A stretch of 38,816 bases of DNA from a bacterium HR37. GTDB lineage: Bacteria; Desulfobacterota_D; UBA1144; Nemesobacterales; CSP1-2. The position numbers and the translations under genes are program-made. Below, piece after piece: positions 3,364 through 19,571 of this stretch (positions are counted from its first letter, which is position 1; each line of letters starts with the position of its first letter). The DNA lies in assembly GCA_002898375.1 (NCBI GenBank), contig BEIN01000023.1, positions 1-38,816 on the forward strand, given 5' to 3'. The notes under the pieces were generated by a model. It saw only the letters and a program-made list of their open reading frames with translations, had not been told where the DNA came from and did not search any database.

Positions 3364-4251
3364 ATGACTTTTCAGGATGTAATTCTAACACTTGAAAGAT
3401 TCTGGGCAAAGCAGGGTTGTATAATCCTACAACCCTACGACCTAGAGAAGGGAGCAGGAACCTTTCACCCGGCAACCTTTCTTAGATGTCTTGGACCGGA
3501 GCCATGGCGTGCAGCCTATGTAGAGCCTTCAAGAAGGCCTACCGATGGACGATACGGTGAGAACCCAAATAGACTTCAACACTACTACCAGTTCCAGGTT
3601 ATAATAAAGCCTTCTCTGGACAATATACAAGAAATTTACTTAGAAAGCCTCAAAGCCCTGGGGATAGACCCACAAGAACATGATATCAGATTTGTAGAAG
3701 ATGACTGGGAATCACCAACGCTAGGCGCCTGGGGGCTTGGATGGGAAGTTTGGTTAGATGGTATGGAGATCACCCAGTTTACCTACTTTCAGCAGGCAGG
3801 GGGATTTGACCTTAAGCCTGTTTCGGCTGAAATTACCTATGGAACAGAAAGGATAGCGATGTATCTTCAAGGAGTTGAAAACGTCTTTGAGCTTGAATGG
3901 ACAAAGGGAATAACATATGGGGAAATACACCACAGAACAGAAGTTGAGTTCTCAAAATACAATTTTGAAGAGTCAAATCCTGAAATGCTAAGAGACCTGT
4001 TTGAGAAATTTAAGGCTGAATGCGAAAGGTTGGTAGATAAAAAGCTCCCGCTCCCGGCCTATGATTACTGTTTAAAGTGCTCACACGTGTTCAATCTGCT
4101 AGATGCACGTGGAGCCATTGGGGTTACAGAAAGAGCCAACTACATAGGAAAGATAAGAACACTTGCAAAGATGTGTGCAGAGGCATATCTCAAGGAAAGA
4201 GAAGAGATGGGGTTTCCCCTTCTCAAAGAAAACCCATGGAGAAAGAGCTAA
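3364..4251 (+). CDS. glyQ: Glycyl-tRNA synthetase alpha subunit
   Basis: A 295-residue catalytic subunit of the bacterial alpha2-beta2 glycyl-tRNA synthetase, a class II enzyme that activates glycine and charges tRNA-Gly. The N-terminus [14 protein letters not shown], the segment [20 protein letters not shown] and [15 protein letters not shown] are characteristic and well conserved. Length matches the family (290-305). AAGGGAAG precedes the ATG. The 3' end overlaps the glyS start by 16 nt, so translation is coupled, fitting a fixed 1:1 complex. Confidence 0.98.
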
Positions 4252-6338
4252 TACTAGAGATAGGAACAGAAGAGATACCAGCAAGGTTTCTTGGAGAAGC
4301 AATAAGGAACCTTGGTTTGATTGCAGAACAAGAGCTAAGAAACGCTTCTCTTTCTTACAATACAATACACACCTATGGAACACCAAGGAGGCTTACTCTT
4401 AGAGTAACGGGTCTTTTGGAAAAGCAAAAAGACAGAATAGTAGAAATACTTGGCCCACCTAAAAGGATAGCTTTTGATGAAAATGGGGTTCCCACAAAAG
4501 CCGCACTTGGTTTTGCCAAATCCCAAGGGGTGGATGTAGAGGATCTGGTTATTGTAGAGCGTGAGAAGGGGGAAGTTGTAGCTGTAAGAAAAACAATAAG
4601 GGGGGAGAAAACAAAGGAACTTCTTAAAAAGCTAATTCCCCAGATAGTACTTTCCATCCCGTTTAAGAAATCGATGAGATGGGGAAACGTAGATATCTCT
4701 TTTGTAAGACCCATAAGATGGATTCTAGCGGTATACGATGGAAAAACCATTCCATTTGTTATAGGGGATGTTAAAAGCGGAGCAACCACAAGAGGGCACC
4801 GTTTCATGTCTGCCAAACCGTTTCGTATAAGAACATGGGAAGAATATGTAGACACCCTTGGAAAGAACTTTGTGGTGCTGGATCAAGATACAAGGAAAGA
4901 AACCATAAAGAAAGAGATAAACAAACTTGCAGAGAACATAAACGGTAAAGTTCAGGAAGACGAAGAGCTGCTTGATACAGTTACCCATCTTGTTGAGTTT
5001 CCCGTCGTACTTATGGGAAGCTTTAGCAGAGAATTTCTTGAGTTACCAAAAGAAGTGCTTATAAGTGTTATGAGAAACCATCAAAAGTACTTCCCTGTGT
5101 TTAGTGCAACTACAAATCCCCAAGGTTATGAACTCCTTCCGTACTTTATATTTGTATGTGGAACTCCTGTTAAAGACCCGCAAATTGTTATAAGTGGAAA
5201 CGAAAAAGTAATCAGGGCAAGATTTACAGATGCAAAGTTCTTCTTCGAAGAAGACACAAAAACCCCGCTTTCCAAAAAGATAGAGAAGCTAAAAGATATG
5301 GTATTTCTCTCCGATCTTGGCACCTACTACGATAAGACACAGAGACTAGAAAAACTTGTAACCTATATTGGGAAAACCCTTGGCCTTCAAGAAAATCAGT
5401 TAAAAGAGCTAGAAAGAGCCGCAGTTCTTTCGAAAGCAGATCTTGCTACTCAGATGGTGTTTGAATTCCCAGAGCTTCAGGGAATAATGGGTAAATACTA
5501 CGCACGTATCTCCGGGGAAACTGATCTGGTTGCAAAAGCCATTGAAGAACAGTACATGCCTACCTCCCGTGAAGGGAAATTACCAGAAACGTTAGCAGGA
5601 GCAATTCTTAGCATATCTGATAAAATCGATAATATCTCGGCATGCTTTATACTGGGTCTTACCCCAACAGGAACATCAGATCCATACGCGTTAAGACGTC
5701 AAGCAATTTCACTTATAAACATAGTTTTAAGCAAAGAACTAGACCTAGACCTTGAAAAGGTATTTCGCCATTCACTTGAGCTGATTACAAGTCAGTTTAA
5801 AAACAACGAATTAAGAGAAAGAATGGATGAGACCCTTAAATCAGTAATGGATTTTATAGCAGAAAGATTAAAAAACCTTCTTGTTTCTGAAGGATTCTCC
5901 CAAGATGTAGTTGACGCTGTAGTTGCCACTGGATTCAGCAACATAGTTGAATCCAAAAAGAAAATAGAGGCCTTAGAGGAGTTTAGAAGACTTCCTGAGT
6001 TTAACCCACTTGCAATTGCATTCAAACGTGTGGTAAATATAGTAAAAGGACAACCAAGAGGCAAGGTTGAAGAAACTCTTTTAGTTGAACCCACAGAGCA
6101 TCTACTTTATCAGGCCTTCTTAGAGGCAAAAAAGAGCATAGATGAGAAAATATCAGAAGGCAGGTATAAGGAGGCTCTTATTCAGATGAAAGCTCTTAAA
6201 GAACCAATAGATAGATACTTTGATGAGGTACTTGTAATGGATAAAGACAGTAGAATCCGGAAAAACAGATTATCAATGCTCTGGGAAATACGTGATCTCT
6301 TTTTTAAGATAGCAGACTTCTCAAAAATAAGTACATAA
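4236..6338 (+). CDS. glyS: Glycyl-tRNA synthetase beta subunit
   Basis: A 700-residue beta subunit that carries tRNA-recognition functions of the heterotetrameric glycyl-tRNA synthetase. I chose ATG 4236 because the protein then begins [18 protein letters not shown], the normal family N-terminus. The frame is open further upstream, but that stretch only mirrors glyQ in another frame. [25 protein letters not shown] and [15 protein letters not shown] are family blocks, and the C-terminus resembles the DALR anticodon-binding domain ([13 protein letters not shown] onward). Length is normal. The start lies inside the last codons of glyQ, and the gene is followed 23 nt later by ppdK. Confidence 0.97.
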
Positions 6339-6361: not shown

Positions 6362-9160
6362 ATGGCTACTGGGATCAAAAAACATAAGGAAAACAAAATT
6401 AAGGCCAAGAAAAAAGCAAAGAAATACGTTTATTTCTTTGGCAATGGAAAGGCCGATGGAACAGGAACAATGAAAGATCTACTCGGGGGGAAGGGGGCAG
6501 GATTGGCTGAGATGACAAGAATTGGCATTCCAGTTCCCCCGGGATTTACAATCTCAACCGAGGTTTGTCGGATATTCTATGAAAACAAAAGAAAGCTCCC
6601 AAGCACAATTGTTAGGGAAATAGATGAGAATCTGGCAAAACTGGAGAAGATAACCGGAAAGAAATTTGGGAGCACAAACGATCCCCTCCTTGTTTCGGTT
6701 CGCTCTGGAGCAAAGTTTTCAATGCCTGGTATGATGGATACAATCTTAAACCTCGGTCTTAACGATACCAGCGTTGAAGGACTTGCACTAAGCACCAACA
6801 ACCCCAGATTTGCCTGGGATGCCTACAGAAGATTTATTCAGATGTTTGGTGATGTCGTACTCAAAATCGATAAAGAAAAATTCGAACAGATCCTAGAAAA
6901 GGTAAAGAATAAGTATGGGGTCAAACAGGACATTGAACTTGGGGTAGAAGCTCTTAAAGAGGTTGTTTCAGAATACAAAAAGCTTGTTAAAGAGATAACG
7001 GGTAAGGAATTTCCACAGGACCCCAGAACTCAACTCTACATGGCAATAAACGCTGTATTTCTTTCTTGGAACAATCCAAGAGCTGTTTTTTACAGAAAGC
7101 AGTACGGAATCCCAGATGATCTTGGTACAGCAGTAAATGTTCAGACAATGGTTTTTGGAAATAAGGGAGAGAAATCAGGTACCGGAGTAGGATTTACAAG
7201 GGATCCGGCAACCGGAGAAAAAATCCTTTATGCAGAGTACCTTACAAACGCTCAAGGAGAGGATGTCGTAGCCGGCATAAGAACGCCCAAGCACATAGAA
7301 GAGCTTGCAAGAGAGATGCCAGAGGTATATAAGGAACTGGTTAAAACCGCAAAAATCCTTGAAAAACACTTTAGAGATATGCAGGACTTTGAGTTTACCA
7401 TAGAAGAGGGCAAGCTATACATACTTCAAACAAGAAACGGCAAGAGAACAGGAATAGCTTCAGGGAAAATTGCCTATGATATGGTAAAAGAACGTCTTAT
7501 CACAAAAGAGGAAGCCCTTCTCAGGGTAGAACCACAACACCTAGAGCAATTCCTCTTTCCGATCTTTGATCCAAACGAGAAGAAAAACTTTAAGCAAATT
7601 GCAAAGGGACTTGCAGCATCTCCAGGTGCCGCTGCCGGACAGGTTGTATTTGATGCAGAGACAGCAGTTAAATGGAGTAGGGAGGGAAAACGTGTAATCC
7701 TCGTTAGAAAAGAGACAAGCCCGGATGATATACACGGTATGGCAGCCTCTCAGGGAGTACTAACCGCAAGGGGAGGGCGAACAAGCCACGCTGCAGTTGT
7801 AGGCAGGCAGATGGGTAAGGTGTGCGTAGTCGGAGCCGAAGAAATAGTTGTAGATGAGGAATCAAGAAGCTTCAGTGTAGGTGATACCGTGGTGAAAGAG
7901 GGAGATTACATATCTATAGATGGTTTTGAAGGTAAAGTGTACCTTGGGGATATACCTGTTATCTCCTCAGAGGTCATACAGGTAATAGAGGGAAAACTTC
8001 GTCCGGAGGAATCTGAAAAATACAGAATCTTTTCCACCATACTCAAATGGGCAGATAAGGTAAGAAAGCTTGGGATAAGAACGAACGCCGATATACCAAA
8101 GGATGCGGAAATAGCCTTAAAGTTGGGAGCAGAGGGGATAGGGCTCTGCCGTACCGAACACATGTTCTTTGCAGAAGATAGGATACCTCTTATGCAGGGA
8201 ATGATTCTTGCAAGAACCCCCGCGGAAAGAGAAGAATTTCTTGACAAGCTTTTACCAATGCAAAAGGAGGATTTCAAGGGCCTTTTCCGTGCTATGAATG
8301 GATACCCGGTTACGATAAGACTTCTGGATCCTCCACTTCATGAGTTTTTACCCAAGCGTGAGGAACTCATGGTAGAAATAAAGGAGCTTGAACTAACAGG
8401 TGGTGACCCTAAAGTACTTGAGGAGAAGAGAAGACTTCTAGCAAGGGTTGAGGAACTTCACGAATTTAACCCCATGCTGGGATTCCGCGGGTGCAGACTT
8501 GGTATTCTCATGCCAGAGATCAGCAGAATGCAAACCCAGGCTATAATGGAGGCAGCGTGCGAGGTTTCTCAGGAAGGCATAAAGGTGATTCCGGAAATAA
8601 TGGTTCCACTTGTAGGTATGCTTACCGAAATAAAGGCTCAAAAAGATATAATCGTTGAGGTAGCCGAAGAGACAATCAGAAGATACGGAAAGCGCATAAG
8701 ATACCATGTTGGTACAATGATTGAGGTTCCAAGAGCAGCTATAACAGCAGATGAGATAGCCAGGGAAGCCGAATTTTTCTCTTTTGGTACAAACGATCTC
8801 ACCCAAACGGTTTTTGCGTTTTCCCGAGATGATGCTGGAAAGTTTATAAAACACTATATGGAGAAGAAAGTAACTCTAAACGGAAAAGAGGTAGAGATTC
8901 TGGATAAGGATCCGTTTTCCACCCTCGACGTAAAGGGAGTAGGAGAGGTAATAAGGATTGCCATTGATAAAGGAAGAGAAACAAGGCCCAACATAAAACT
9001 GGGGATATGCGGAGAACACGGTGGAGACCCTGATTCCATTGAATTCTGCCACAACTTAAAAATGGATTATGTAAGTTGTTCTCCCTACAGAGTACCGATT
9101 GCAAGGCTTGCTGCAGCTAGGGCAGCACTAAAGGAGAAGGAAAAAGAAAAAGCAACTTAG
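6362..9160 (+). CDS. ppdK: Pyruvate, phosphate dikinase
   Basis: A 932-residue enzyme interconverting pyruvate + ATP + Pi with PEP + AMP + PPi in central carbon metabolism. Domains in order: an N-terminal ATP-grasp nucleotide-binding domain (about 22-370), a swivelling phosphohistidine domain with GGRTSHAAVVGRQMG (His476 the phospho-carrier, Thr474 the usual regulatory site), and a C-terminal PEP/pyruvate TIM barrel with RTEHMFF, SFGTNDLTQ and GICGEHGGDP (Cys883, the general acid). Length is slightly above the usual 875-900. The first 21 residues are an unusual lysine-rich extension. AGGGAG lies about 10 nt before the ATG. The 3' end overlaps the convergent ymdB stop by 4 nt. Confidence 0.97.
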   Translation: MATGIKKHKENKIKAKKKAKKYVYFFGNGKADGTGTMKDLLGGKGAGLAEMTRIGIPVPPGFTISTEVCRIFYENKRKLPSTIVREIDENLAKLEKITGKKFGSTNDPLLVSVRSGAKFSMPGMMDTILNLGLNDTSVEGLALSTNNPRFAWDAYRRFIQMFGDVVLKIDKEKFEQILEKVKNKYGVKQDIELGVEALKEVVSEYKKLVKEITGKEFPQDPRTQLYMAINAVFLSWNNPRAVFYRKQYGIPDDLGTAVNVQTMVFGNKGEKSGTGVGFTRDPATGEKILYAEYLTNAQGEDVVAGIRTPKHIEELAREMPEVYKELVKTAKILEKHFRDMQDFEFTIEEGKLYILQTRNGKRTGIASGKIAYDMVKERLITKEEALLRVEPQHLEQFLFPIFDPNEKKNFKQIAKGLAASPGAAAGQVVFDAETAVKWSREGKRVILVRKETSPDDIHGMAASQGVLTARGGRTSHAAVVGRQMGKVCVVGAEEIVVDEESRSFSVGDTVVKEGDYISIDGFEGKVYLGDIPVISSEVIQVIEGKLRPEESEKYRIFSTILKWADKVRKLGIRTNADIPKDAEIALKLGAEGIGLCRTEHMFFAEDRIPLMQGMILARTPAEREEFLDKLLPMQKEDFKGLFRAMNGYPVTIRLLDPPLHEFLPKREELMVEIKELELTGGDPKVLEEKRRLLARVEELHEFNPMLGFRGCRLGILMPEISRMQTQAIMEAACEVSQEGIKVIPEIMVPLVGMLTEIKAQKDIIVEVAEETIRRYGKRIRYHVGTMIEVPRAAITADEIAREAEFFSFGTNDLTQTVFAFSRDDAGKFIKHYMEKKVTLNGKEVEILDKDPFSTLDVKGVGEVIRIAIDKGRETRPNIKLGICGEHGGDPDSIEFCHNLKMDYVSCSPYRVPIARLAAARAALKEKEKEKAT

Positions 9161-9969
9161 TGAGAGTCACCCAAAGGCACAGCTACTCTCCTAATTGCTA
9201 ATCCCTTTCCGCTATCGGGGTCTAAGTCTATTATAACCCCATGAAGCCAGATATCTTCTCTGGCAGGCTCAAATTTCTGAGGCATAAGGGTAAGGAACCT
9301 GGTTATAACCTTTTCCTTATTCATACCTATTACCGAATTCATAGGTCCTGTCATTCCTATATCCGTTATATAAGCAGTACCATTTGCAAGTATCCTTTCA
9401 TCTGCTGTTTGGACATGAGTGTGGGTTCCAACAACTGCGCTTACCTTACCATCAAGGTACCATCCCATAGCAATCTTTTCAGAAGTTGCCTCTGCATGAA
9501 AATCAACAATTACGATATTGGTTTGCTTACTTATCTGCTCCACAAGATCCGAAGCAGTAAAGAAAGGATGGTCATAAGAGTCCATAAAAAGATTGCCACA
9601 CAGGTTAATAACCCCTATCTTATATCCAAGCGCAGTCTCAAAAACACCGTATCCATTTCCCGGGGTAGACCTAGGAAAGTTTGCAGGGCGAAGAAGCCGT
9701 GGTTGATTCCCTATATAGGGAATGATTTCTTTCCTATCCCATATATGGTTTCCAGAGGTAAGCACATTAATACCACAGTTAAGGAGAAACTCAACAAGCT
9801 TTGGTGTAACCCCCTTTCCCCCAGCAGCATTCTCACAGTTTGCTATAACAAAGTCTACCTCATTTTCCCTAACCAGATTAGGTAAAAGAGAGGATACAGC
9901 TTTTCTACCGGCTTCGCCGAAAATATCACCTATAAACAAAATACGCAGCCTCTTGCTATACTCCACCAT
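9157..9969 (-). CDS. ymdB: YmdB-family metallophosphoesterase
   Basis: A 270-residue calcineurin-like phosphoesterase of the YmdB/TIGR00282 family; the Bacillus member hydrolyses 2',3'-cyclic nucleotides. Metal ligands are visible: Asp15 (FIGDIFGEAG), Glu46/Asn47 (NCENAAGGKG), Asn74-His75 (SGNHIWD), His158 (VDFHAEATSEK), and His183/His185 (GTHTHVQTAD). Length is standard. It lies just downstream of rny on the same strand, the common rny-ymdB pairing that links it to RNA turnover. No good Shine-Dalgarno sequence precedes the ATG. Its stop codon is interlocked with that of ppdK on the opposite strand. Confidence 0.95.
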   Translation of the reverse strand: MVEYSKRLRILFIGDIFGEAGRKAVSSLLPNLVRENEVDFVIANCENAAGGKGVTPKLVEFLLNCGINVLTSGNHIWDRKEIIPYIGNQPRLLRPANFPRSTPGNGYGVFETALGYKIGVINLCGNLFMDSYDHPFFTASDLVEQISKQTNIVIVDFHAEATSEKIAMGWYLDGKVSAVVGTHTHVQTADERILANGTAYITDIGMTGPMNSVIGMNKEKVITRFLTLMPQKFEPAREDIWLHGVIIDLDPDSGKGLAIRRVAVPLGDSH

Positions 9970-14853: not shown

Positions 14854-16014
14854 CTACTTTATGCTTATAACCTGTCCGTTCTTTAGAGTAAGGATAAAAG
14901 GCCGAGGATAGATATATACTCCATCATCTGCTTTCCTTTCTACCTTAAACAAGAAATCTTCTCCCAGTGCAAGGAGTCTTTTGATTAAATCCTCTCTCCT
15001 GTGCAGTTGATTGGCCTCCACTATGTTTATAATCAACCTTACCCCCTCATAGATTTGATACTCCAGAGAACCCGGTTCCTCATCAAATAGGGTTTTAAAT
15101 CTGGAGACAAAGCTAAGCCATCTAAGGCTATCGGGAGAGAAGAAATCGGTAAAAACCACTTTAAGAACGATCCCATCTATTGCATCCCCTACACTATCTA
15201 TAAAACGCTTGCTATGCCAGGTACTGAGACCAAGAAAAAGGAAGCTCTCTGCTCTTATTTGCTCTTTAAGTTTGCTTATAATAGCTGCTGAACGTGTTGC
15301 CACATCGGGGATAAATAAAGCCTCGGGTTTTAATGTTTTTACCCACTCCAGTTCATAGGCGATATTTGAGAGATCCAAATCATATGAACCAGTATAAGTT
15401 ACACTACCTCCCTCTATCTTTACGGATTCAACAAATGCATCTTTAAGGTACTCCCCAATAGAGGTTCTGGGATAGAGAACCCCAAACGTCCTTACCTTAA
15501 CATCATGTACCGCATAGTGTGCAAGAGCTGAAGCCTGTTTTTCTACAGGGTATGAGAACCTTATTATATATGGGTTTTTAACTGATACCTCTTCGGATAG
15601 AGGAAAAATAATTGTTGGCACCTGGAGTGATTTAAGAGTCGTATCCAGCATAGATATATAACCGCTAGGAATTGGGCCAAAAACAACTAAAACCCCATCC
15701 TTTAGAACCATCTCCTCAAGTGCACCCTGCAGTTTAGTAACATTTCCTTCCCCAATATCACTAACAACAATACGGAAACCATCCGTATCAAATACATCGG
15801 TTGCTGTTAAGACTCCCCTTAGAGCCCTTTTACCTAAATCCGTATACCTTCCACTTAAAGGGAAAATACATCCAATTGTGCTTAGGCTGTTTTCCTTTGT
15901 ATAACTAGGTTTCAGCTCATCGTAGCCATGGGCACAAATTGAGAGGCAAAGAACTGCCGTAACAAGAGAGCCAAAAAACACAATAAGGTTAAGATAAGAA
16001 GCCCTACCCATCAT
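14854..16014 (-). CDS. Periplasmic type 1 binding-fold protein (LivK / penicillin-binding protein activator-like)
   Basis: About 386 residues from ATG 16014; the frame extends to a GTG at 16038, giving 394. An N-terminal hydrophobic signal segment is followed by a mature protein of the type 1 periplasmic-binding fold, with the family opening IGCIFPLSGRYTDLGKRALRG. VVFGPIPSGY, RFSYPVEKQASALAHYA and YEGVRLIINIV occupy typical positions. Such proteins either bind amino acids for ABC transporters or act like the LpoA activator of peptidoglycan synthases. No ABC transporter gene is nearby, which slightly favours the activator-like role; the ligand cannot be read from the sequence. No Shine-Dalgarno sequence is obvious at either start. 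Confidence 0.75.
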   Translation of the reverse strand: MMGRASYLNLIVFFGSLVTAVLCLSICAHGYDELKPSYTKENSLSTIGCIFPLSGRYTDLGKRALRGVLTATDVFDTDGFRIVVSDIGEGNVTKLQGALEEMVLKDGVLVVFGPIPSGYISMLDTTLKSLQVPTIIFPLSEEVSVKNPYIIRFSYPVEKQASALAHYAVHDVKVRTFGVLYPRTSIGEYLKDAFVESVKIEGGSVTYTGSYDLDLSNIAYELEWVKTLKPEALFIPDVATRSAAIISKLKEQIRAESFLFLGLSTWHSKRFIDSVGDAIDGIVLKVVFTDFFSPDSLRWLSFVSRFKTLFDEEPGSLEYQIYEGVRLIINIVEANQLHRREDLIKRLLALGEDFLFKVERKADDGVYIYPRPFILTLKNGQVISIK

Positions 16015-16067
16015 CACGTTTCTATCAATTATACCCACTAAAAAAGACAGCTAAATAACAGCAATAA

Positions 16068-16158: not shown

Positions 16159-16187
16159 TTGACAAAGTAACCTTTAAGCATTATATT
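16159..16187 (+). promoter_or_regulatory. Sigma-70-type promoter of the phasin/PHA operon
   Basis: TTGACA (16159-16164), 17-nt spacer, TATATT (16182-16187): a near-consensus promoter. The leader to ATG 16222 would be about 28 nt and contains GGAGG. This is one of the strongest promoters visible in the window, fitting the high abundance of phasins. Confidence 0.75.
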
Positions 16188-16761: not shown

Positions 16762-17148
16762 ATGGGTGATAAAAAAAGAGAAGAACCAGATTACTTTAAC
16801 TACTTTAAAAGGGTCTATGAGCTCTGGGAGAAGTCCGCATCTCAAGCACTTGAGCTGTGGATAAAAAGCCCTCTTTTTAAAAACACAATGGAAAAAGCAC
16901 TTGAAAAGTCCACCGAGTTTAGAAACTACATTCAGGAGGTTATGGACAGGACTTTAAAATACAGATACTTTCCTATGAAAAATGATATAGATAAACTTGC
17001 AGAGTATCTAAGTTCTTTAGAGGAGAAGTTAAATAAGCTCGAAAGCAAGATAAACGAGCTTCAAAGTATACACGACTTGCCTCGGGATGAATCCAGCAGG
17101 AGTGGTAAAGTAAAATCAAAAGCCAGGAGGAAGAAACAAAATGGGTGA
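16762..17148 (+). CDS. PhaE-like PHA synthase subunit, copy 1
   Basis: A 128-residue helical protein. Residues 12-35 (YFKRVYELWEKSASQALELW, then KSPLF) and 40-80 (EKSTEFRNYIQEVMDRTLKY, then FPMKNDIDKL) match the corresponding parts of the next gene's product. A coiled coil (about 80-108) and a basic tail (KSKARRKKQNG) complete it. The pattern of LxLPTKxDID followed by a Leu coiled coil is that of PhaE/phasin C-termini. PhaE is the non-catalytic partner of class III PHA synthase but usually has about 350 residues, so this is a short form. It overlaps the next gene by 8 nt. The basic tail may bind DNA, as seen for some granule proteins; that is speculation. Confidence 0.75.
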   Translation: MGDKKREEPDYFNYFKRVYELWEKSASQALELWIKSPLFKNTMEKALEKSTEFRNYIQEVMDRTLKYRYFPMKNDIDKLAEYLSSLEEKLNKLESKINELQSIHDLPRDESSRSGKVKSKARRKKQNG

Positions 17149-17590
17149 AGAAAAGTTTAACTATGCCGAGTACTACAAGAAATTCTACGAAGCATGGGAA
17201 AAAACCATGTCTGAAGCAATAGAGATGTGGGCAAAAAGTCCGTTTTTAAGCACTAGAGAAGGTGGAGAAAAGGAATCCGAGTTTGATCCCGTAGCGTATT
17301 ATAAAAAGTTTTACTCTATATGGGAAAACTCCATGTCTGAAGTCCTGGATATGTGGCTTAAAAGCCCCTTTTTTGGTGCAAGCTTGGGTAAAGCCGTAGA
17401 GAAATCCTCTGAGTTCAAAAAGTATCTGGACGATGTCATGGAAAGAAGCCTCAAAAACCTTCACCTTCCCACAAAAAGCGACATAGACAGGATTCTAGCA
17501 TCTGTCAACAAGATTGAAGCCAAGATCAATGACTTATGGGATAAGCTAGAGGAATTGAAAGCCGAAAAAGAAAGTACCAGAGCTGAGTAA
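17141..17590 (+). CDS. phaE: PhaE-like PHA synthase subunit, copy 2, with internal duplication
   Basis: A 149-residue paralogue of the preceding protein. A 25-residue module occurs twice: residues 11-35 (YYKKFYEAWEKTMSEAIEMW, then AKSPF) and 53-77 (YYKKFYSIWENSMSEVLDMW, then LKSPF), 17 of 25 identical, offset by 42. The rest continues as in copy 1, EKSSEFKKYLDDVMERSLK, LPTKSDIDRI and a coiled coil to the end. It is probably the regulatory partner of PhaC encoded 34 nt downstream. It is much shorter than classical PhaE. The symbol is given on the basis of position and pattern, not full-length similarity. Confidence 0.75.
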   Translation: MGEEKFNYAEYYKKFYEAWEKTMSEAIEMWAKSPFLSTREGGEKESEFDPVAYYKKFYSIWENSMSEVLDMWLKSPFFGASLGKAVEKSSEFKKYLDDVMERSLKNLHLPTKSDIDRILASVNKIEAKINDLWDKLEELKAEKESTRAE

Positions 17591-17624: not shown

Positions 17625-18698
17625 ATGTCACTTCAATTAAGCTATTTTGAGTCATTAATACGGGAAGCTGAAAAAGCAAAGCAAAAGTTTGAAAAGAGCC
17701 TTGAACTTGCTCTGCTAAATCCACCCGAGGTTAAAGTAGGAATAACCCCACATGAGGTGGTATTTACTGAGAACAAACTGAGACTCCTTCACTACCACCC
17801 TGTGGTAGAAAAACCCTATCCCGTCCCGCTTATTATGATATTTGCCCTCATAAACCGTCCCTACATACTGGATCTAAGACCCGGGAGAAGCGTGGTTGAG
17901 GTTCTTCTAAAAAAAGGTATAGACGTATACCTAATTGACTGGGGTGTACCAGGAGATGAGGATAGACACCTCAACCTTGATTACTATATAAACAGATACA
18001 TAAAAAAGGTGGTAAACAGGGTAAAGAGGCTCTCTGGCTCTCGTCAGGTAAGCATAATGGGCTACTGTATGGGTGGTACAATGTCAGCCATGTATACAGC
18101 ACTCTATCCTGAGGATGTAAAAAACCTTATTTTAATGACTGCGGGAATCGATTTTAAAGTTGATGGAATGTTAAATGTATGGGGAGATAAATCGAACTTT
18201 GACGTTGATAAGTTTGTAGATGCTTTTGGAAATGTTCCACCTGAATTCCTTCAAGTAGGGTTCCTTCTTATGAAGCCCATTCAGAACCTTGTTTCAAAAT
18301 ACGTTAGCTTTTACGAAAATATAGACAACGAGCAGTTCGTTGAAAACTTCCTTGCCATGGAAAAATGGATAAACGATAACATACCTGTGGCTGGAGAGGT
18401 TTTTAGAGAATTTGTCAAGTACTGCTACCAGGAAAATCTCCTAGTAGAAAACAAGCTTAGGATAAATGGAAAACTTGTAGATCTCAGGAAAATAACCTGT
18501 TCTGTTCTCAATTTAATAGCAGAACATGATCACCTTGTTCCACCTGCATCAAGTCTGGTTTTTACCGATCTGATATCAAGTAAAGACAAGGAGACAATAA
18601 TATACCCAACAGGTCATATTGGACTTGCAGTAAGCAGCAAATCCTTAAAAGACCTATGGCCAAGAGTTGGAGACTGGCTTATAGAAAGGTCAAAGTGA
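17625..18698 (+). CDS. phaC: Class III poly(3-hydroxyalkanoate) synthase PhaC
   Basis: A 357-residue alpha/beta-hydrolase-fold polymerase that links 3-hydroxyacyl-CoA into polyester. The nucleophile sits in the lipase-like box GYCMGG (Cys148). The other catalytic residues are Asp302 (LIAEHDHLVPP) and His331 (YPTGHIGLAVSS), matching the class III enzyme of Allochromatium almost residue for residue. Class III length (about 355) and the preceding PhaE-like genes agree. GGAGGAGG stands about 13 nt before ATG. It converges with the reductase gene at 18747, leaving a 48-nt AT-rich gap with no clear terminator. Confidence 0.97.
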   Translation: MSLQLSYFESLIREAEKAKQKFEKSLELALLNPPEVKVGITPHEVVFTENKLRLLHYHPVVEKPYPVPLIMIFALINRPYILDLRPGRSVVEVLLKKGIDVYLIDWGVPGDEDRHLNLDYYINRYIKKVVNRVKRLSGSRQVSIMGYCMGGTMSAMYTALYPEDVKNLILMTAGIDFKVDGMLNVWGDKSNFDVDKFVDAFGNVPPEFLQVGFLLMKPIQNLVSKYVSFYENIDNEQFVENFLAMEKWINDNIPVAGEVFREFVKYCYQENLLVENKLRINGKLVDLRKITCSVLNLIAEHDHLVPPASSLVFTDLISSKDKETIIYPTGHIGLAVSSKSLKDLWPRVGDWLIERSK

Positions 18699-18746: not shown

Positions 18747-19505
18747 TTACATATACTGCCCACCGTTTATTCTGAGTGTAACTCCTGTAATCCAACTTGC
18801 AGCAGGCGAGCAGAGATATAGGACAGATAGGGCAACTTCTTCTGGTGTGCCAAATCTCCCCAGAGGAATCTGGGCTTTTATCTGGTTTCTTATATCTTCT
18901 GGAACAGTACCAAGCATATCGGTTTCTATAAATCCGGGAGCTACCGCATTTACGCGAATGTTATGACTGGCCAACTCTCTTGCAAGGCTCTTTGTAAAAC
19001 CTATTATTCCTGCTTTCGTAGCGGCATAGTTTGTCTGTCCAATATTTCCCATCTCTCCTATAATTGAAGAAATAGAAATAATTACGCCACTGTTTTGAGC
19101 TATCATGTATTCAATAACTGCCTTGGTACAGTTGTATACGCTGTTAAGGTTAGTTTGAATAACCTCATTCCACTGTTCAGGTGTCATCCTACGAAGGGTT
19201 CTATCCCTGTTTACCCCTGCATTATTTACCAGGATATCTATCCTCCCAAAATGATTCATAATGGCCTTACCAAGATTTTGAGCCTGCTCGTATTTGCTAA
19301 CATCGGCTCGTACCGTAACACACTTTCTTCCCATGCTCTCTATTTGTCTTTTTACCTCATAGGCTGCCTGGTCATTTCTGGCATAGTTTAACATTATATC
19401 AGCCCCAGCCTCAGCTAAAGCAAGACAAATTGCTCTACCTATACCCCTTGAACCTCCGGTAACGAGTGCAACCTTCCCGCTAATATCGTATAGATCCTTT
19501 ATCAT
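18747..19505 (-). CDS. Acetoacetyl-CoA / 3-oxoacyl-ACP reductase (SDR family, PhaB/FabG)
   Basis: A 252-residue short-chain dehydrogenase. The NAD(P)H motif is GGSRGIG near the N-terminus, NNAG is present, and the Ser-Tyr-Lys triad is in SISSIIGEMGNIGQTNYAATK. It most likely reduces acetoacetyl-CoA to (R)-3-hydroxybutyryl-CoA for PhaC, given its place beside phaC. PhaB and FabG cannot be told apart by these motifs, so the symbol is left open. I chose ATG 19505 because GGGAGG lies 8 nt upstream; an in-frame TTG at 19520 overlaps that ribosome-binding site. No thiolase gene (phaA) is in the window. Confidence 0.92.
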   Translation of the reverse strand: MIKDLYDISGKVALVTGGSRGIGRAICLALAEAGADIMLNYARNDQAAYEVKRQIESMGRKCVTVRADVSKYEQAQNLGKAIMNHFGRIDILVNNAGVNRDRTLRRMTPEQWNEVIQTNLNSVYNCTKAVIEYMIAQNSGVIISISSIIGEMGNIGQTNYAATKAGIIGFTKSLARELASHNIRVNAVAPGFIETDMLGTVPEDIRNQIKAQIPLGRFGTPEEVALSVLYLCSPAASWITGVTLRINGGQYM

Positions 19506-19571
19506 TGTTATACCTCCCAAGAGAGTTTTTTAAATTTATTTAACGGATAGAATTATGATTTCTAACCCTTT

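Follow-up and report, generated by a model that had tools for sequence, protein, structure and literature searches.

Two paralogous PhaE/PhaR-like proteins encoded beside a class III PHA synthase in Candidatus Dadabacteria

Introduction

Why would a class III PHA synthase gene be preceded by two genes for small, partner-like proteins? The question is raised by a locus on a 38,816-nt stretch of DNA (hereafter the window), which corresponds to contig C23 in a genome of 2.4 Mb. An earlier note, made from the letters of this stretch, had described two overlapping genes of 128 and 149 residues as PhaE-like, set them against a norm of one PhaE of about 350 residues, and proposed a synthase built from PhaC plus two non-identical small subunits, with evolution by module duplication. 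We refer to the two proteins as E1 and E2. The contribution of PhaE and PhaR to PhaC is poorly understood. In the open-licence PMC literature, we came across no account of a class III synthase with two partners and, for PhaE1/PhaE2 naming, no PHA paper among the matches listed. One survey names Dadabacteria among the phyla searched for PhaC (PMC8312272); the other matches to Dadabacteria and PHA in the same literature were surveys or passing mentions only.

Results

A PHA operon with two small genes upstream of phaC

In this Dadabacterium, a PHA-synthesis operon runs along the forward strand, with a phasin-like gene, E1, E2 and phaC in succession (Table 1). The E1 and E2 genes share 8 nt and have the sizes that the earlier note had given, and 34 nt separate the end of E2 from phaC, in a gene order common to 15 genomes. 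The synthase belongs to class III: it matches TIGR01836 at 2.7e-131 (437.7 bits, above the curated cut-off of 365.3), and contains a GYCMGG box (G-x-C-x-G-G) at residues 146–151 together with the complete Cys-Asp-His triad. Its closest named relatives, 73–83% identical, are Candidatus Dadabacteria MAGs. Shine-Dalgarno-like sequences precede the phasin-like gene, E1 (AAAGGAG), E2 (AGGAGG) and phaC, and homologues of the phasin-like gene sit 5′ of E1 in most genomes with an E1-E2 pair. As a consensus scan returned about as many sigma-70-like sites as in shuffled sequence (8 sites; shuffle mean 5.7, sd 2.4), we regard the promoter in Table 1 as suggestive only. The reductase on the opposite strand likely supplies monomer, and several relatives carry a related reductase 3′ of phaC in opposite orientation. 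Divergent from the operon lies a gene for a substrate-binding-protein-like product (14854–16038, reverse strand), the position of which is retained in many pair-bearing Dadabacteria.

Table 1. Features of the PHA locus, with positions in the window
Feature	Position	Strand	Evidence
Candidate operon promoter, TTGACA-17-TATATT, sigma-70-like	16159..16187	+	5′ of phasin gene; 11/12 consensus matches
Phasin-like gene, 134 aa	16222..16626	+	Phasin_2 PF09361, E = 4.9e-4, 20.7 bits (cut-off 24.9)
E1, PhaE/PhaR-like, 128 aa, one module, basic C-terminal tail	16762..17148	+	TIGR02132, TIGR01834; 15 E2-paired orthologues
Single E1 module, aa 14–38, YFKRVYELWEKSASQALELWIKSPL	16801..16875	+	E1 orthologue alignment; predicted helix 10–35
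Lys/Arg-rich C-terminal tail of E1, aa 105–128	17074..17145	+	Charge; no predicted secondary structure, low pLDDT
E2, PhaE/PhaR-like, 149 aa, module twice	17141..17590	+	TIGR02132, TIGR01834, PF09712
Module A of E2, aa 11–35	17171..17245	+	17/25 identical to module B; 0/1000 shuffles
Conserved PhaE/PhaR core of E2, ~aa 49–149	17285..17587	+	Dadabacterial core profile
Module B of E2, aa 53–77, first helix of conserved core	17297..17371	+	Alignment, shuffles
Class III PhaC, 357 aa, catalytic C148/D302/H331	17625..18698	+	TIGR01836 and motif positions
SDR reductase, FabG/acetoacetyl-CoA reductase type	18747..19520	-	TIGR01830 318.1 bits, over cut-off; TIGR01829 301.3 bits (cut-off 302.1)

E1 and E2 share the core of PhaE and PhaR

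Are E1 and E2 related to known PhaC partners? Against the PhaR model TIGR02132, E2 scores 3.9e-9 (36.7 bits) and E1 2.3e-6 (27.7 bits), both below the curated cut-off of 148.4. The PhaE model TIGR01834 is matched by E2 at 4.8e-7 (29.6 bits), with residues 44–142 aligned to model positions 224–322 of 324, and by E1 at 0.0036 (16.9 bits), again below the cut-off (154.95). Direct hmmscan additionally linked E2 to the PhaE family PF09712 at 5.8e-5 (22.9 bits, below the cut-off of 25.7), while PF09712 run against the genome to which the window belongs yielded 0 matches, as did its controls, and is thus uninformative. Weaker matches exist to phasin families: E2 to PF05597 (3.6e-4) and TIGR01837 (9.9e-4), and E1 to TIGR01837 (0.011), the PhaF-type phasin model, with 15.9 bits against a cut-off of 94.7. 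E2 adjoins a class III phaC as PhaE does, and both proteins score below the curated PhaE cut-off; of the marks of class IV PhaR, they lack both the curated score and the arrangement of one small subunit per phaC, there being two per locus.

What both proteins hold is the C-terminal core of PhaE/PhaR, about 95 aa long, at sub-cut-off scores. Conversely, a profile derived from the Dadabacterial cores and run on 54 phaC loci of other phyla picks the gene just 5′ of phaC in 36 of them, matching the C-terminal part of long PhaE, short archaeal PhaE and Bacillota PhaR-like proteins. With the family models recognizing E1 and E2 and the Dadabacterial profile recognizing outside partners, core homology is supported in both directions. 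At the level of sequence, this supports placing both proteins among the PhaE/PhaR-type partners of PhaC, and the PhaE-like label that E1 and E2 had received holds accordingly with respect to TIGR02132 and TIGR01834 for both and to PF09712 for E2.

Two partners per locus, in four Dadabacterial families

Short partners are common. The 54 phaC loci of other phyla, a sample comprising loci found by PhaC similarity only, contain one partner in 36 cases and none detectable by the Dadabacterial-core profile in 18; two partners were detected by that profile in 0 of 54. Partner length ranges from 134 to 531 aa, with single partners of 134–280 aa common; haloarchaeal PhaE measures ~20 kDa (PMC2939530) and PhaR of Bacillus cereus YB-4 18.5 kDa (PMC8878867). 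Since a short partner is thus ordinary, the baseline of a single ~350-residue PhaE was drawn too narrowly: the unusual feature here is the presence of two partners, not their shortness.

Homologues were sought in 61 genomes, mostly MAGs, and with E1 and PhaC as queries in 45; absence refers to searches at E <= 0.001, and completeness behind the absence calls is 83–97%. Finding the same gene pair in related genomes had been proposed as a check, and adjacent E1 and E2 genes, always 5′ of phaC, indeed occur in 15 Candidatus Dadabacteria genomes from 11 genera and 4 families. Eight of these pairs overlap by 4 nt, three by 1 nt, two by 8 nt and one by 17 nt, which suggests translational coupling; G037 is counted at 4 nt using the annotated-like start L011:1501, a longer mechanical ORF extending further 5′. 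Among all genomes searched, E2 occurs only together with E1 and phaC, and E1 also occurs alone.

Could the pair stem from one ancestral PhaE that a frameshift or an error in sequencing has divided? The two genes do overlap in different reading frames. However, the same two genes are intact, each with its own start site, in 15 genomes, and E1 plus E2 amount to the same core twice, not to two halves of one protein. A split gene is thereby ruled out, its residual probability being negligible. Of the synthase proposed at the outset, the pair of non-identical small proteins therefore stands as a conserved feature; the lone E1 genes described below argue against its simple reading as two synthase subunits. 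Breakage does affect phaC itself in two low-quality genomes (G009 and G035). Separately, L021:2449-4140 is an in-frame read-through of E2 into PhaC, with a linker containing stops and hydrophobic junk.

A repeated helix in E2 and a basic tail in E1

The module with its conserved tyrosine and tryptophan had been counted three times, twice in the second protein with 17 of 25 positions identical, and this count is confirmed. Aligned locally with the rest of the protein, the E2 N-terminus scores 119, whereas the shuffle maximum is 46 and 0 of 1000 shuffles equal the observed value; all 15 E2 homologues possess the repeat (scores 65–119, 0/1000 shuffles each). The E1 module is more distant, being 54% identical to A and 46% identical to B in a comparison of 24 aa. 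Taken together, the shuffle test in 15 E2 proteins and the distance of the E1 module indicate that the repeat is real, conserved and specific to E2. Identity between A and B is the same within genomes (0.53) as between them (0.54), giving no sign of ongoing concerted evolution. We dropped the view that module A is certainly Dadabacteria-specific, as a Y/W helix in the partners from Vampirovibrionales (L027) and Nitrosotalea aligns with it, if weakly (2–4 bits only).

How do the two proteins differ in shape and charge? The AlphaFold model of E1 (pLDDT 77, pTM 0.34) has helices at residues 10–35, 37–68 and 72–104 followed by a disordered tail, and that of E2 (pLDDT 67.5, pTM 0.30) has helices at 8–31, 50–73, 76–106 and 112–147; with confidence moderate to low, the arrangement of the helices in either model is not reliable. 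By these predictions, E2 has an extra N-terminal helix that E1 lacks. A fold search with the E1 model against the PDB gave no match at E <= 0.001, and a profile search of the PDB returned generic coiled coils only, with no solved relative found. The last 25 residues of E1 carry a net charge of +6 in the window and of +3 to +12 in 15 of 15 paired E1 proteins, as compared to -3 to +2 (near-neutral) in E2. This E1 tail is short, about 20–25 aa, being longer only in L010 of G007, and AAKP-type repeats are missing in most genomes.

An ancient duplication

In a tree built from the cores, one branch separates E1 from E2 in 95% of bootstrap trees, from which we take the duplication to be ancient; the E1-versus-E2 branch itself, calculated from few alignment columns, is weakly supported (68/43). 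The simplest account of the sequences would be a single whole-gene duplication that predates the separation of the Dadabacterial families, plus one copying of the first helix within E2. Module duplication, as initially proposed for the system as a whole, is thus confined to E2, E1 and E2 having apparently diverged through the older whole-gene event.

Closest among the outside relatives is the Vampirovibrionales partner L027, whose tail has a net charge of +8. As this protein combines a module-A-like helix with a basic tail, it is possible that an ancestor had both features, which E1 and E2 later divided between them. The partners from Bacillota (L054, L071 and L075) lie near the Dadabacterial proteins in the tree, with weak support. 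At L027:3514-4176, 5′ of the single partner, is a gene for a 220-aa protein that by eye resembles a PHA-accumulation regulator of the DNA-binding PhaR type.

E1 in a genus without phaC

In one genus (g13 of family f3), six of the seven searched genomes encode a single-module E1 (L112:9356-9721, L113:8963-9343, L114:8057-8416, L136:3078-3440, L137:2316-2681 and L138:3800-4162). Neither the PhaC search nor the PhaC_N profile detected a PhaC in this genus, and searches for E2 and for a phasin relative were equally negative; the substrate-binding-protein-like gene is gone along with phaC. On the unbroken contigs L112, L113 and L114, the order is prfA, ccsA, E1, enoyl-CoA hydratase, FKBP-like protein, E1 lying directly 5′ of the hydratase gene on the same strand. 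The corresponding order in PHA-positive relatives is prfA, ccsA, substrate-binding protein, phasin, E1, E2, phaC, reductase, enoyl-CoA hydratase. In the core tree, the g13 proteins are nested within the E1 clade of their own family (100/100).

Do these genes still serve a purpose? One might see in them recent remnants that are heading for loss and carry no pointer to an independent function: every other tested PHA gene has been lost from the genus, and E1 was not found in the seventh genome (G039, 83% complete). Yet the ORFs are intact in six species-level genomes, with a nearly invariant core, and dN is 0.06–0.17 while synonymous sites are saturated for most pairs, the three computable pairs giving dN/dS of 0.04, 0.08 and 0.12. 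Low dN at saturated synonymous sites indicates that E1 has been maintained without a synthase, and we rate decay as quite improbable. An intact, constrained E1 in the absence of phaC, E2 and phasin means that E1 cannot be a PHA-synthase subunit only; judged from these sequences, it probably has a PhaC-independent role. The neighbouring enoyl-CoA hydratase as a partner of E1 is a lead only.

Elsewhere, a lone divergent E1-like protein is encoded at L115:7449-7874, 5′ of Rieske and cytochrome b genes, in genome G005, in which no close class III PhaC was found.

Discussion

What, then, do two such proteins do beside one synthase? We lean, by a modest measure, towards E2 being a PhaE/PhaR-type activating subunit and E1 a diverged paralogue with a PhaC-independent role, possibly as an adaptor between granule and nucleoid. 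For E2, this is based on its better scores against the PhaR and PhaE models than those of E1, and on its occurrence only with E1 and phaC. On this view, a class III PhaC would have had one partner of the PhaE/PhaR type, which was duplicated before the families diverged; E2 would then have acquired an N-terminal duplicate of the W-containing helix, and most probably binds PhaC and activates it. E1, which would have kept one helix module and the core and carries a basic, apparently disordered tail, most probably acts beside E2 at the nascent granule via the shared core, a division that would amount to subfunctionalisation. Its tail may contact DNA or another polyanion, by analogy with PhaF and PhaM, which tether granules to the nucleoid, PhaF via a histone-like domain of positive charge (PMC5658603). 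As the tail is short and mostly lacks AAKP-type repeats, DNA binding is a guess.

Alternatively, both proteins may be obligate subunits of one PhaC-E1-E2 synthase, a heteromeric PhaE made of two chains. In line with this, E2 strictly co-occurs with E1 beside phaC, from overlapping genes in 15 genomes, and the two share the core of known partners; we nevertheless consider it rather unlikely, since E1 survives under purifying selection in a genus where phaC and E2 are missing, and since it scores clearly below E2 against the PhaE and PhaR models. Or might E1 and E2 coat the granule like phasins, with PhaC working alone or with an unknown partner? This would accommodate the weak matches to PF05597 and TIGR01837 as well as second phaC paralogues that lack nearby E genes in some relatives and are intact in G002. 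It is the less probable of these two alternatives, and improbable in our judgement: E2 matches the PhaR and PhaE models better, the E genes hold the partner position directly 5′ of phaC as in other phyla, and the operon already contains a distinct phasin-like gene 5′ of the pair.

Known systems offer both parallels to E1 and E2 and departures from them. Class IV PhaR of Bacillus (TIGR02132) resembles E1 and E2 in core homology, similar size and a gene 5′ of phaC; in the loci seen, however, it occurs once per locus, without a duplicated N-terminal helix or a paired paralogue. PhaE (PF09712, TIGR01834) shares with E2 the C-terminal match and the class III PhaC next door, but in the Dadabacterial proteins only the C-terminal ~95 aa are represented, at sub-cut-off scores, and two genes stand in for one. 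Short archaeal PhaE (~20 kDa in Haloferax, 188–193 aa in Nitrosotalea) is reminiscent of E2 in its short single core, whereas it comes from a single gene, is ~17–19% identical to E2 and has neither an E1-type basic tail nor a close A/B repeat. PhaF and PhaM, finally, resemble E1 in combining a granule-linked helical protein with a basic tail. This is a working analogy of function, not of membership: E1 possesses the basic C-terminal tail of such linkers but scores below the cut-off of TIGR01837, the model of the PhaF-type N-terminal domain, and fits the PhaR model better; compared with theirs, its tail is much reduced in length and mostly lacks AAKP repeats.

A broader proposal is that E1 is a PhaE/PhaR-family protein with a PHA-independent function that has become linked to the synthase in PHA-making relatives. 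We find this plausible, if somewhat short of probable. If true, the family of synthase partners would be a broader family of adaptors and not of enzyme subunits only. E1, with the helix lost and a basic tail gained, and E2, with the helix doubled, separate features that ordinary PhaE combines, so that each can be tested alone; the genus with lone E1 represents a natural deletion experiment, in which a family protein would be useful without a synthase. At 110–171 aa, E1 and E2 are small and hence suited to structural work.

Some relatives also encode a second class III PhaC, 73–76% identical, with no E1 or E2 nearby (L116:7972-9027 in G002, L117 ~4240-5310 in G006 and L118 ~8500-9200 in G001). 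E1 and E2 were found nowhere in the genome of G002. The second PhaC is intact in G002 (351 aa) and has an in-frame stop in G006 and G001; its gene adjoins pantothenate genes in G002 and G006.
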